From contig WSZY01000101.1 of NCBI GenBank assembly GCA_013139875.1, forward strand, positions 1 through 10,296: a stretch of DNA of 10,296 nt, in the 5' to 3' direction. A program made the position numbers and the translations under genes. Every line of letters begins with the position of its first letter. The first letter of the stretch is position 1. The notes beneath the pieces are model-generated. The model had not been told where the DNA came from. It was given only the letters and a program-made list of their open reading frames with translations, and did not search any database. Source of the DNA: Mariprofundaceae bacterium. GTDB taxonomy: Bacteria > Pseudomonadota > Zetaproteobacteria > Mariprofundales > Mariprofundaceae. This document shows, piece by piece, positions 2,892 through 10,296 of the stretch.

Positions 2892-4511
2892 CTACACTTC
2901 ATGAAATGCGTGTGTAATGGGATAACGCCTGTCCCGGCCGAATGCACGCCGGGTGATCTTCACACCCGGCGGTGCCTGACGCCGTTTATATTCAGCTGCA
3001 TGCAGCATACCCACCACGCGCTGAACCTCACTCCTGTCAAACCCCTGTGATGCAATCTCATCAACCGAGAGCCGATCTTCAATGCTTCCCTTCAGGATGG
3101 CATCCAGCTTATCGTAGTCCGGTAGCGAGTCTGAATCCTTCTGGTCAGGCCTGAGCTCTGCAGATGGCGGTTTATCAATACTATTTTGCGGAATTATCTC
3201 ATGCTCACGATTTATGTAGTCTGCCAGTGCAAACACATCGGTTTTATAGACATCCTTCAGCACAGCAAAGCCACCGGCCATATCCCCGTAAAGCGTGGCA
3301 TAGCCGACTGCCATCTCTGATTTATTACCGGTTGTCAGCAGCATGCGGCCGCTCTTATTTGAGATCGCCATTAACAATATACCACGACTGCGAGCCTGAA
3401 TATTCTCCTCTGTCACATCCGGTTCACTCATGCCCCATGCGGCGAATGTATCGGCAAGAACTGTATCAACTGCATCAACAGGCCCTGCAATGGGCAGGGT
3501 CACACTCTCAATGCCGAGATTCACCGCCAGTGCTTCTGCATCTGTAACAGAGTGATCACTGGAGAGCTTCGAGGGCAACAGTACACCCAACACGTTCTCC
3601 GCCCCCAGTGCTTCCACCGCAATGGCTGCCGTGACGGCCGAATCAATACCGCCGGAGAGCCCGATCAGCACCTGCTGGCAGCCATTCCTGTGTACATAAT
3701 CACTTACACCCAGCACCAGTGCAGCATGAATCTGCGCAACCGTTGATGGAACAGGGACAACAGATGACTGGCCGGCCTGCTCCAGGTCGACAACCGGCAA
3801 TGCTGTTTCAAAAAGAGGAGCCCGAAGCAGCAACTCTCCTGCTGCATCGACCACGTGAGAACCACCATCAAAGACCACCTCATCCTGCCCACCCACCGGA
3901 TTGACATAGATCACAGGGGCTGAAAAGCACTTTGCACGTTCACTCATCAGCGCCTCGCGCTCAATCTGTTTATCGATGTGGAAAGGTGATGCATTGAGGT
4001 TCAGCCATACATCGGCAGTCAGCCCGGCCTGTTTCCCTGCCAGCGAGTCGCTCCAGATATCTTCACAGATTCCAATGCCGACCTTCCAGCCATCAATATC
4101 GAAAACAACCTCATTGCCACTACCGGGGATAAAATAGCGCAGCTCATCAAAGACACCATAATTGGGCAGGCACTGCTTATCACAGATGCCGAGCAGTGCG
4201 CCTTTTCGTGCAATAAAGGCACTGTTCATCAACCTGGTTCTGTCACGACCGGCAACGCGGCGCGGCGCACCAAAGACGACAGCACAATCACCACTGGCTG
4301 CAACAATCTCATCCACGGCGAACTCCACCGCTTCCATAAACGAGGGCCGGAGTAGCAGATCTTCCGGCGGATAGCCGGTAACAGCAAGTTCAGGAAAGGC
4401 GATCAGATCACACGATGCATTTTCAGCCCTGTTGGCTGCATCAATCATCAGCTCAATGTTGCCGGTGATATCGCCCACTCTGGGGGCAATCTGTGCCAGC
4501 ATGATTTTCAT
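2892..4511 (-). CDS. nadE: Glutamine-dependent NAD(+) synthetase (NadE, two-domain form)
   Basis: Last step of NAD synthesis: nicotinate adenine dinucleotide is adenylated and then amidated with ammonia taken from glutamine. The 539 residues have two domains. The N-terminal nitrilase-type glutaminase (about 1-250) carries the triad E41 (FPELAVTGY), K112 ([14 protein letters not shown]) and C149 (GIGICEDIW). The C-terminal synthetase (about 260-539) has the pyrophosphate loop SGGIDS (286-291), ENIQAR (369-374), TTGNKSE (393-399) and [13 protein letters not shown] (408-420). Both active sites look complete. The ATG overlaps the queA stop (ATGA), with AAGGAG 5 bases upstream inside queA, so the two are translationally coupled. 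Because it uses glutamine rather than free ammonia, it depends functionally on GlnA, encoded next on the same strand. Stop is TAG. Confidence 0.97.
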
Positions 4512-5577: not shown

Positions 5578-7731
5578 CTATGGCTTTTCTAAAACCCTGT
5601 ACAGGGCCTTTTTCAGATCTTTAGCCCTGAACGGCTTGGCAACAAACATATCCGGCCGCCTCTCTTCAGCAAGGCTTTCTATCTCCACCTCACTATAACC
5701 GGACACCAGAATAACAGGTATCCGGGGGTTGGCTTCACGCATCTTCCTCATCGCATCCACACCACCCAGTCTCGGCATGGTTATATCCAGTAATACGGCA
5801 ACAATTTCTTTCTGGTGTTTACAGAAAACATCCACTCCCTCCAGACCATCGGCTGCCTGTAAAACATCAAAATGAAAATGCTTAAGGAAGAGTGATGCCA
5901 CTTTGCGTACCGCCGGATCATCATCAACAACCAGGACAGTTCCATCGCCTTGCCATCCATCCATCTCGGAAGTAATAACCTCTTTTTTTCTGAAGGTCTG
6001 ATAAGCACGGGGAAGCAGGATCCTGAATTTACTGCCTTTTCCGGCTTTACTGATCACTTCGATCACACCCTTGTGTCCATGAATAATACCGAGCACAGCA
6101 GACAATCCGAGACCCGTTCCGCTCTCTTTTCTGGTAAAGAACGGATCAAAAATCTTTCTTACCGTCTGCTTCGTCATACCACACCCTGAATCAGCTATCG
6201 TAACAAACACATATTTACCTTCGGGAAGATCAGTGCCGTTGTATTGTCTGTCCAGAAATGCCCTGCCTGCATTCATAATTCCGGTACGTATCCGGATATC
6301 TCCTGCATCAGAACCAATCGCTTCGGCCGCATTAATGATAAAGTTCAGAATCACCTGCTGGATCTGTGCCTTGTCTGCCTCGATGGAAAGTGGCTGCTCA
6401 TCAAGTCTCAACTGCAGCTTGATATTCTGATCGAGGGATGCCCTGAGCAGACTGCCCATGTCCCGCACAAGCCCGTTAATTTCCAGTATATCCATGGTAT
6501 GCGGACTTTTGCCGGCATAGGCAAGCATCTGCTTGCACAGTTCCGCTGCCTGGTTACATGCCTCTTCGATATTGTCAAAATGCTCACTGGCTCGCGATGG
6601 CTCTTTCACCTCCCTCCGCGCCAACTCAGCATTACCCATGATAGCTGCCAGAAGATTATTGAAATCGTGCGCAATACCACCGGCGAGCACACCAAGTGAT
6701 TCCAGGCGCTGGGAATGCTCCAGTTGGCCCTGCAACAAAAGGTTCTTCTCCTCATACTTTCTGCTCTCGGACAGATCACGACAGGATATGAGAAAGGATG
6801 GCTCACCATCAAATATCACAGGACTGCCCTGAACTTCAGCAATAAATGTTTCACCGTTTCTGCGTAGCAGTTTTTCCTCCACCACAGGTACGGCTATACC
6901 CTCCTTCATCTGGGTCTGCATCCGTTCAATAGCCATGGAGTGATAATCGGGGTGAATGTAGTCCAGAACCGGTGTTCCCAGAATCTCCTCGCTACTTTCA
7001 GAGGCAAACAACTCTATGCCAGCAGGATTCATATAAACCCATTTCCCATCACGATGTACACCCACGGGGTTGGGTGAATTTTCAAGCAATACCCGGTGAT
7101 TGGCTTCACTCTCAGCCAGTAACACTGTCTCCTGTTTTAATTGCCCCTGAGCTCTCTGCAGAAGTCCTTTTCCCTCTTCGATCGAACTTACAATAAGATA
7201 GGCAAGTATCGTAAAAGCTGCATACACCGAACCAAAGTAAGGCATGATGCTCCAGTCCGGAGAGAGTGGCAGATGACCCAGCCATGCAACAGCCGCAAAA
7301 CCGATGATGGTCAGCGCATAGGTGATCGACCAGGCCAGACCGGCGCGGGCACCGGAGATAAAACCGGAAAAGAAAGGAAAGCCCAGGCTCCATACATAAC
7401 CAATACCGCTGATACCACCGAGAAAAAACAGCAAAAGGAAGAGCGTTGCCGCATACAGGTTCGTGATGGCACCCAACCAGAAAACCGGTGCATCATGGTG
7501 TGACCACCACCATGTCAGGGCAAGCACCAGTGCCATAGCTGCTTCAACCCATGCAAGCAGATAAAAGCCCTGCATAAAATTCAACACAAAGAATACAGTG
7601 ACAAAAGGCAGGGCGGTCAGCAGGCAAATTCTGATCGCTTTCAGCTGCACATCACCAGCATGAGAAACATCCGGCTCCGATGATGTGCCGTGGGTCAAAA
7701 CCGTCTCTTCCGCCGGTTGCTCTGCTGTCAA
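5578..7731 (-). CDS. Membrane-bound hybrid sensor histidine kinase (6 TM - PAS - HisKA - HATPase - REC)
   Basis: A 717-residue signalling kinase with an unknown stimulus. About six hydrophobic segments lie within residues 34-182, followed by a short linker helix (about 184-208) and a PAS domain (about 209-325). HisKA has phosphoacceptor H355 in GGIAHDFNN. The ATPase domain shows N463/N467 (LNFIINAAEA), D514 (IADSGCGM), FDPFFT (528-533) and GTGLGLS (538-544). A C-terminal receiver (about 597-717) has D603-D605, acceptor D649 (LLDITMP), S677 and K699. All catalytic residues are present. The receiver is the last domain: no HPt, DNA-binding or cyclase output is fused, and no response regulator lies nearby, so partners must be encoded elsewhere. 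The start is TTG at 7731, chosen because AGAGGGG (7744-7738) ends 6 bases upstream and the next methionine is residue 53, inside the first membrane segments. It sits 23 bases before queA. Stop is TAG. Confidence 0.92.
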   Translation of the reverse strand: MTAEQPAEETVLTHGTSSEPDVSHAGDVQLKAIRICLLTALPFVTVFFVLNFMQGFYLLAWVEAAMALVLALTWWWSHHDAPVFWLGAITNLYAATLFLLLFFLGGISGIGYVWSLGFPFFSGFISGARAGLAWSITYALTIIGFAAVAWLGHLPLSPDWSIMPYFGSVYAAFTILAYLIVSSIEEGKGLLQRAQGQLKQETVLLAESEANHRVLLENSPNPVGVHRDGKWVYMNPAGIELFASESSEEILGTPVLDYIHPDYHSMAIERMQTQMKEGIAVPVVEEKLLRRNGETFIAEVQGSPVIFDGEPSFLISCRDLSESRKYEEKNLLLQGQLEHSQRLESLGVLAGGIAHDFNNLLAAIMGNAELARREVKEPSRASEHFDNIEEACNQAAELCKQMLAYAGKSPHTMDILEINGLVRDMGSLLRASLDQNIKLQLRLDEQPLSIEADKAQIQQVILNFIINAAEAIGSDAGDIRIRTGIMNAGRAFLDRQYNGTDLPEGKYVFVTIADSGCGMTKQTVRKIFDPFFTRKESGTGLGLSAVLGIIHGHKGVIEVISKAGKGSKFRILLPRAYQTFRKKEVITSEMDGWQGDGTVLVVDDDPAVRKVASLFLKHFHFDVLQAADGLEGVDVFCKHQKEIVAVLLDITMPRLGGVDAMRKMREANPRIPVILVSGYSEVEIESLAEERRPDMFVAKPFRAKDLKKALYRVLEKP

Positions 7732-8508: not shown

Positions 8509-8628
8509 CCCTCCTGATCTGTACCGAAAGCCGAAAAAACTGAAGCAGAGCCTAACGGATAACAGAGCCCTTTCCAGTAAAATTCACAACAGTTGGAGGA
8601 GTTAAGTCGACTACGTTATGCTCGCGCC
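8509..8628. promoter_or_regulatory. Divergent intergenic region between rpiA and the membrane-protein operon
   Basis: Both outward transcripts should begin here. On the plus strand, TTGGAG (8593-8598) and TATGCT (8617-8622) are 18 bases apart and could act as -35 and -10 boxes. Transcription would then start at about 8629, the very ATG of the membrane protein. A 7-base direct repeat CAGAGCC occurs at 8546-8552 and 8563-8569. For rpiA I see no strong promoter. All of these calls rest on short motifs. Confidence 0.35.
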
Positions 8629-9318
8629 ATGCTTACAGCGCAGATCGACATTATGATTACCGTACTCTTCTTCGTCGGCCTGCTCCAGCTTGCCTGGCTT
8701 TCGGTCATGCTGCTGCGCCGGAATATTCCCCCGGCCTCGCTCTCGGCTTCACTGCCACCGATGATCTCAATCTGGGTTCTGCTCTGGCCACTTTACGAGC
8801 ACCCGGTCTGGCTCTGGGCCGGCATCATGCTGCTCGCTCTTCCTCTCCTGCTGGCATTCACTGCCAACACCCCCTTCTGGCAACATTTGCGTATCGCCTG
8901 GTCAGGCAGATTTTATGAAGATGAGTCTCCCCGGATGTGGCCGCTGCTATCACTTATTGCCGCTCTTGCTGTTGCTGCAGGTTTTTTTCAGCGCCTGCCC
9001 GAATTCGGTCTCGGGATTGGCCTCGCCATATGCCTGGCCTTCCCTGCTGCCGACCTGCTGGACAGAAGTGGATATATACAGCTCGGCTTTCCGAAGCATC
9101 CTGAACAGACACTGATCGGCCATATCGCTCTGGTCTTTTCCACCACCCTGTTGTGCGGCTGGGCTATCCACCTCTACCACGGTATCGAGTGGCAACGCCT
9201 CCTCATTGCCACACTACTGGTTGGTATTGCTGCCTCTGCCACCAGGGCTTTGCTTCCGACCCATGCCATGCTGCCGCTGGCCACGCTCGGTATGGGTGTG
9301 ACGTTGTGGCTACTATAG
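8629..9318 (+). CDS. Polytopic membrane protein, possibly a divergent polyprenol/phytol-kinase-like (CTP-transferase fold) protein
   Basis: I cannot assign this gene firmly. The 229 residues from ATG 8629 are very hydrophobic, with about seven or eight membrane segments (near 8-29, 40-55, 59-78, 104-120, 124-143, 162-183, 190-206 and 211-229). A polar loop at 80-103 and another at 144-161 (LLDRSGYIQLGFPKHPEQ) separate them. That second loop, followed by TLIGHIALVFST, and the C-terminal ATRALLPTHAMLPLATLG resemble the layout of dolichol/phytol kinases and CDP-diglyceride synthases (a GDG...R..G...K..EGS region, then a Pro-rich last helix). The usual GDG is absent, so activity is doubtful. The frame also opens at TTG 8593. 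Neither start has a proper ribosome site: GGAGG at 8595-8599 is 30 bases before the ATG, out of range. nadC follows after 19 bases. Stop is TAG. Confidence 0.6.
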   Translation: MLTAQIDIMITVLFFVGLLQLAWLSVMLLRRNIPPASLSASLPPMISIWVLLWPLYEHPVWLWAGIMLLALPLLLAFTANTPFWQHLRIAWSGRFYEDESPRMWPLLSLIAALAVAAGFFQRLPEFGLGIGLAICLAFPAADLLDRSGYIQLGFPKHPEQTLIGHIALVFSTTLLCGWAIHLYHGIEWQRLLIATLLVGIAASATRALLPTHAMLPLATLGMGVTLWLL

Positions 9319-9337: not shown

Positions 9338-10186
9338 ATGAGCTCAACCGATGTCGACAGACTGATTGAGATGGCACTGAACGAAGACGCCGTAACTAAC
9401 GACCTTACCTCTGTCGCTACGATCGGAGATGAGCAAGAGGGTGTGGCATGCATCACTGCCAAGGCAACGGGCCTGCTCTCCGGTATTCCGCCTGCCAGAA
9501 TGGTATTTGAACAGGTTGACCCGGCCATTAAACAGCGCTGGCTGGTTAGTGATGGCGACCGTGTTGATGAGGGTAGTCTGCTCTGTGAGCTTAAGGGCCC
9601 GGTACATTCACTGCTCGCAGCCGAGCGAACAGCCCTGAACTTTCTGCAGCATCTCTCAGGCATTGCCACTGCAACCGCGAGCTATGTCGAAGCACTCTCC
9701 GGTACCAATTGCCGGGTCGTTGATACCCGCAAAACCACGCCCGGCATGCGAAAACTGGAGAAGGCTGCAGTTGTTCATGGTGGTGGTGGCAATCATCGTA
9801 TGGATCTTGAATCCGGCATGCTGATCAAAGAGAATCATATCGAAGCATGCGGCTCAATCACCGAGGCAGTCGGCAAATGTTATTCTCAGGGTGATCATAT
9901 CTGGGTCGAGGTGTAGTGCGAAACCTTCGAGCAGCTGGAAGAGGCAATCCACGCCTGCCCCGACATGATTCTGCTCGATAACATGACACCGGATGAGGTG
10001 GCAAAGGCACGCGGGATAACACCCGGATCAATGCTGCTGGAGGCATCCGGAAATATCACATTGGAGAATGCCCGGGCCTATGCAGTAACAGGTGTTGACC
10101 GTATCGCCATCGGCGCCATCACCCACTCAGCCCCCATACTGGATCTCTCCATGCGTGTCACTCCGAAAAAAACGGGCAGAGCATGA
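9338..10186 (+). pseudogene. nadC: Nicotinate-nucleotide pyrophosphorylase (NadC) interrupted by an in-frame TAG at the active-site Glu codon
   Basis: NadC converts quinolinate and phosphoribosyl pyrophosphate to nicotinate mononucleotide in de novo NAD synthesis. The ATG at 9338 has AGGA (9328-9331) 6 bases upstream. The frame runs 283 codons, the normal length, to TGA at 10184-10186, but codon 193 (9914-9916) is TAG. Before it are R97 (AAERTALNFL), R131/K132 (DTRKTTPGMR), H153/R154 (GGGGNHRM) and K164 (LIKENHI); after it come D214 (LLDNM) and LEASGNITLENARAYAV. Each is 8 positions before the active-site residue numbering of the M. tuberculosis enzyme, so the TAG replaces the active-site glutamate (E201 there). 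GAG to TAG is one base. No other damage is visible and the end overlaps birA (ATGA). Without readthrough only a 192-residue fragment, lacking much of the catalytic barrel, would be made. A sequencing error is possible. Confidence 0.9.
9914..9916 (+). other. Premature amber codon (TAG) inside nadC, codon 193
   Basis: The local reading is GTC GAG GTG TAG TGC GAA, which translates as VEV-stop-CE. NadC relatives have VEVE followed by a short variable residue, with the second E in the active site. The codon lies 21 codons before the aspartate of LLDN, the spacing found in intact NadC proteins, so no bases have been gained or lost around it. No stem-loop or known readthrough context is obvious next to it. 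Confidence 0.95.
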
Positions 10187-10296
10187 ATCCGAATCGGGAC
10201 GCCATTCTGGCTCGCCTTGCCGGCAGCAGCTTACCGGTCTCAGGTGATGCGCTGGCACATGAACTGGGACTGAGCCGGGCAGCTGTCTGGAAACAT
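10183..10296 (+). CDS. birA: Biotin-protein ligase / biotin operon repressor BirA, N-terminal part (gene continues past window)
   Basis: Only 38 codons are visible. They form an N-terminal winged-helix DNA-binding domain: residues from about 5 (RDAILARLAG) lead into LAHELGLSRAAVWKH, the recognition-helix motif typical of BirA. In the full-length family this domain represses biotin synthesis genes, and a following ligase domain attaches biotin to acetyl-CoA carboxylase and other acceptors. The ligase domain cannot be seen here, so another HTH_11-type regulator is possible but less likely. The ATG lies within the nadC stop (ATGA). This overlap suggests translational coupling, which a premature stop in nadC could disturb. 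No strong ribosome site is seen beyond a weak GGGCAGAG at 10174-10181. Confidence 0.85.
   Translation, partial: MNPNRDAILARLAGSSLPVSGDALAHELGLSRAAVWKH

Follow-up and report, generated by a model that had tools for sequence, protein, structure and literature searches.

The nadC frame and its neighbours

The DNA analysed here (the window, 10,296 nucleotides) is the entire contig C194 of genome G000, an assembly of 1.16 Mb in 243 contigs that is 74% complete. Judged by the NadC protein, the closest named relatives are Mariprofundaceae metagenome-assembled genomes (Zetaproteobacteria), the nearest at 84% identity; the Zetaproteobacterial lineage comprises iron oxidisers. Near the end of the window lies nadC, the gene for quinolinate phosphoribosyltransferase (9338–10186, forward strand), which runs from an ATG at 9338 to a TGA at 10184–10186 and has 282 codons before that TGA. 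Codon 193 of this frame is TAG (9914–9916). It is the only internal stop, and the frame is complete on both sides of it, as had been read from the sequence alone. The 5' part (9338–9913, forward strand) is open for 192 codons and the 3' part (9917–10183, forward strand) for 89 codons. Both pieces matched the profile TIGR00078, with 205.9 bits 5' of the stop and 82.3 bits 3' of it (the cut-off for the whole protein is 198.4 bits), and they cover positions 2–174 and 186–269 of the 269 in the profile, so the family is matched over its whole length.

On the downstream side, nadC overlaps birA by an ATGA at 10183–10186. The overlap is thus kept, again as first described, and both it and the gene order are the same in the sister genome G002. 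Only the 5' end of birA, a name that comes from the sequence-only reading and from likeness to G002, is present in the window (10183–10296, forward strand), where the contig ends. The gene goes on in contig C23 (L296), so that the two contigs carry it jointly; they share 28 bases (10269–10296, forward strand, and C23:1–28) with one mismatch at 10281, which is silent in birA. The frame upstream of nadC (8593–9318, forward strand) appeared hydrophobic by eye, had no Pfam match and uses TAG as its normal terminator; it is 81% identical to the frame that precedes nadC in G002. The NAD synthase gene nadE (2892–4511, reverse strand) is intact, also ends in TAG, and scored 696.4 bits against NF010588 (cut-off 479). 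A hybrid sensor kinase with PAS, kinase and receiver domains is encoded at 5578–7731, between queA and rpiA.

Conservation of the interrupted codon and the cost of losing nadC

To place codon 193 in the enzyme, an alignment of 120 homologues (the best 120 of 7,971) was used. All 120 listed homologues have Glu at this position, which corresponds to the active-site E201 in the numbering of the Mycobacterium tuberculosis and pig enzymes. All 120 of these best-matching proteins also share the window residues R97, R131, K132, H153, R154, K164 and D214, and 119 share E191. Chain 1qpn (M. tuberculosis) matched with the same chain-index offset, +7, before and after the site, which equals the +8 given earlier provided that the chain starts at residue 2. 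Codons 131, 153, 154 and 164 plus 8 give R139, H161, R162 and K172, residues of the M. tuberculosis enzyme that are named in PMC3633916. The assignment of the TAG to E201 at a constant offset is therefore sound: the offset is unchanged across the site and the named residues agree at +8. PMC3633916 also places Glu201 and Asp222 of pig QAPRTase close enough to the ribose hydroxyls of the product for hydrogen bonding.

Alignment with nadC of related strains, one of the checks that had been proposed, gave the same picture at the nucleotide level. All 27 named Zetaproteobacterial loci (L032–L058) have GAA or GAG here; the count was confined to these rows, other rows being partly misplaced by indels or strand. 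No PF01729 match in the 57 other genomes having one contained an internal stop.

The remainder of the gene had been described as free of decay, and the comparisons agree. Identity to the nearest listed homologue, P0001, is 93.2% before the stop and 94.4% after it. Substitutions relative to G002 fall at the three codon positions as 21/16/63 before the stop and 7/9/27 after it (Fisher p = 1.0). By these sequence comparisons, nadC is without sign of decay, the 3' part being conserved as well as the 5' part.

We then considered what a loss of nadC would mean for NAD synthesis. A second copy can be ruled out in the assembled sequence, as G000 contains one PF01729 match. Of the other two de novo genes, nadA is present, in frame and without stops, while nadB was not found in this 74% complete genome; the nadB family was matched in 36 of 37 genomes searched, 30 of them above the cut-off. 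As for salvage, G000 and three same-genus genomes (G000–G003 together) had no match to PF04095, the nicotinate and nicotinamide phosphoribosyltransferases; 9 of 37 genomes had one, four of them in the same family and three of those four weak. PnuC was found in none of 21 genomes searched, G000 and the three same-genus genomes included. Alternative NAD entry was judged by these two families, PF04095 and PnuC. Given a single-copy nadC and neither family found, a true null should be very costly, and a fixed null is therefore less likely. Loss would remove the only NAD route seen with these two families tested.

Further in-frame stops in the assembly

To see whether nadC stands alone, 60 further contigs of G000 plus the window, and then 10 more stretches, were compared with stretches of G002; the matched genes amount to about 30% of the genome. 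Ten of the 60 contigs and one of the 10 later stretches were dropped as mostly N. Homology scans used the longest frames only, with a codon-position filter and a check for competing frames, to remove opposite-strand clutter; matches below 40% identity, shorter than 50 residues or failing the filter were discarded, with 197 kept and 169 passing. These 169 matches with a coding substitution pattern cover 49,160 codons and contain 12 in-frame stop triplets (4 TAG, 2 TAA and 6 TGA).

Three of these stops were accepted as internal to a gene, the match running on past them in both directions, and all three are TAG: those in nadC, in resB and in an ABC-F-like ATPase gene. None of the 169 matches held a clear internal TAA or TGA. 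The lone TAG of resB (PF05140) lies at C166:778 (L186, forward strand), in the only copy found in G000, and the 11 other genomes with a match all have resB without a stop. The lone TAG of the ABC-F-like gene, which encodes two ABC domains, lies at C111:25 (L179, reverse strand), 25 bases from the contig end, so that only six codons remain after it; no second copy of this gene end was found in G000. The assembly thus holds further unexplained single-base stops in conserved genes. Six stop triplets near a match start or end or under another frame were set aside (L291, L160, L290, L178, L179:1837 and L186:7123, the last of which overlies a short gene on the other strand), as were three in L292, which belong to a single match over a short gene on the opposite strand.

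In the reverse direction, 9 filtered G002 matches hold stops. Eight of these were discounted because the stops fall at the start or end of the match or under another frame; one of the eight has three stops near its start (L257:7132–7183). The one left in the sister sample, at L236:13411 near an N-terminus, is ambiguous. With three nonsense sites here and no clear one in a sister sample of like size, the evidence of a difference is weak (one-sided probability 1/8 at equal rates); G002 is fragmentary as well and was sampled only where it matches G000. A survey by codon usage alone gave 20 candidate internal stops in G000 and 25 in G002; many were simply the ends of genes, and the survey was not used.

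The positions of the three stops relative to contig ends were also compared. All three lie within the outermost tenth of half their contig, at 0.009, 0.097 and 0.074 of that half length from the nearest end (p = 0.004 by Fisher combination, for a test picked after the data were seen). If wrong bases fell at random, a rate of about 6e-4 per site would account for three nonsense bases in the 49,160 matched codons. Amino-acid mismatch to G002 is not higher near contig ends (0.129 within 50 bases, 0.162 beyond 1600), which speaks against an end effect, although this comparison is blind to an error rate of 6e-4. The main longest-frame comparison, which covered the contigs other than the 10 later stretches, contained no frameshift.

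Origin of the stop codon

Taken together, these results favour, at a probability of roughly 0.6, a TAG that is a wrong or minority-strain consensus base close to a contig end, as opposed to something fixed in the organism. The codon would then encode Glu in the living population; this Glu would hold the ribose hydroxyls, and NadC would work normally, converting quinolinate and PRPP to nicotinate mononucleotide. Because there are three lone single-base stops in conserved genes and no frameshift in the main comparison, base miscalls would fit better than decay. In line with this, PMC11017572, on RefSeq, reassembled and simulated genomes, states that many internal-stop pseudogenes come from assembly errors, that spurious internal stops are tied to low coverage and low-quality reads, and that low-quality reads chiefly add internal stops and not frameshifts. 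Our literature searches found no paper linking nadC and quinolinate with a premature stop codon, and none on premature stops from sequencing and assembly errors in metagenome-assembled genomes.

The overlap with C23 bears on the choice between a wrong and a minority-strain base. Its mismatch would be expected if this neighbourhood was present in the data in two versions and the assembly broke off at that point; being single and silent, it is explained no less well by strain variation than by error. Among 61 of the G000 contigs, contig-end overlaps consisted of the one with C23 and two matches that are not end to end. A second contig with an alternative version of the site was sought, and only the 28-base overlap with C23 came up, which stops short of the TAG.

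A real, very recent nonsense allele private to this strain is a tentative second reading that we consider unlikely. NadC would be dead, and the cell would import NAD precursors by an unseen route or be a doomed variant. The TAG base is, after all, in the assembly; one substitution is enough to create it, and a recent change predicts the lack of decay. That nadB was also not found is in keeping with such a loss, though about a quarter of the genome is missing, and the PF04095 matches in four other genomes of the family, weak as three of them are, suggest that salvage may exist in the wider group. Against this reading stand the lack of PF04095 and PnuC matches in G000 and its three same-genus genomes and the undamaged nadA, and the stops in resB and the ABC-F gene would need independent hits.

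It is improbable that the TAG is read through, by a suppressor tRNA or weak release-factor-1 termination, with a few ambers tolerated and full-length NadC made. All three accepted stops being TAG would accord with it, but TAG accounts for 47% of the single-step routes to a stop, so that drawing it three times out of three is no surprise (p = 0.10). G000 uses TAG as an ordinary terminator, neither rare nor absent: 26 of 125 compared genes end in it, as do 26 of 125 in G002, with 18 common to both, and so do 4 of the 7 genes in the window whose ends were checked. Wholesale reassignment is ruled out by this stop usage. No stop was seen at the same site in relatives, every one of the 120 best of 7,971 homologues having Glu there.

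The search for an amber-suppressor tRNA, which had also been suggested, gave no CUA anticodon among the 20 tRNA genes found in the 74% complete genome, a number so low that tRNAs must be missing from the assembled sequence. A CUA-tRNA pattern had no match in G000, where the reversed pattern had 10, and it was matched in 19 of 21 genomes, with none in G000; the 28-base matches that recur in relatives would probably be tRNA-Arg genes (anticodon TCT) picked up one base out of register. The release factor 1 gene prfA was not found over the cut-off in G000 and is present in the same-genus genomes G001 and G002, which would favour read-through, though it may simply reflect the absent quarter of the genome. 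G000 has just a weak match to the prfA family, at C189:9–488, which is possibly release factor 2. The base directly after the nadC TAG is T, and PMC5289835 links a U following the stop to less read-through. An explanation by RNA structure was likewise rejected, as the RNA downstream of the TAG folds like its shuffles (z = -0.50) and the window has no Rfam match.

A specific form of this, early ambiguous decoding in which an unseen tRNA or a weakened release factor 1 allows some decoding of UAG, ambers are tolerated in nadC, resB and the ABC-F gene, and TAG still serves as terminator, would be a little less probable still. A split enzyme, in which the 192-residue product and a restart fragment form a working NadC, is scarcely credible: both halves are conserved, but the Glu itself is lost, the first downstream in-frame ATG (9965) lies 16 codons past the stop, and the 120 listed homologues are 270–307 residues long apart from one of 223, none as short as the 192-residue product.

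The original observation is thus correct, and nothing found calls for new biology. The sequence-only reading had left a very recent change, an error and read-through unranked; we now place an erroneous or minority base first, private nonsense second and read-through last. Should the TAG be an error, it would illustrate that single stops in fragmentary assemblies may reflect the assembly more than the organism, and the count of lone stops would be a usable gauge of assembly quality. If it is read through, it would suggest that this lineage of iron oxidisers decodes amber codons ambiguously, for which resB and the ABC-F gene allow a direct test.

Amber-recoded or amber-suppressing bacteria carry in-frame TAG in conserved genes, and G000 shares this trait; unlike them, it uses TAG as a common terminator and has no CUA tRNA in the assembled sequence. 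With the NadC family (TIGR00078, PF02749 and PF01729), the window gene agrees over its whole length and in all the other active-site residues named, differing in the stop codon that replaces a Glu invariant among the listed homologues. The window gene also resembles the artefactual internal-stop pseudogenes treated in PMC11017572: although here we infer the error as the cause, the two have in common a change of one base, a conserved gene, no decay, a fragmentary assembly and several affected genes per genome.
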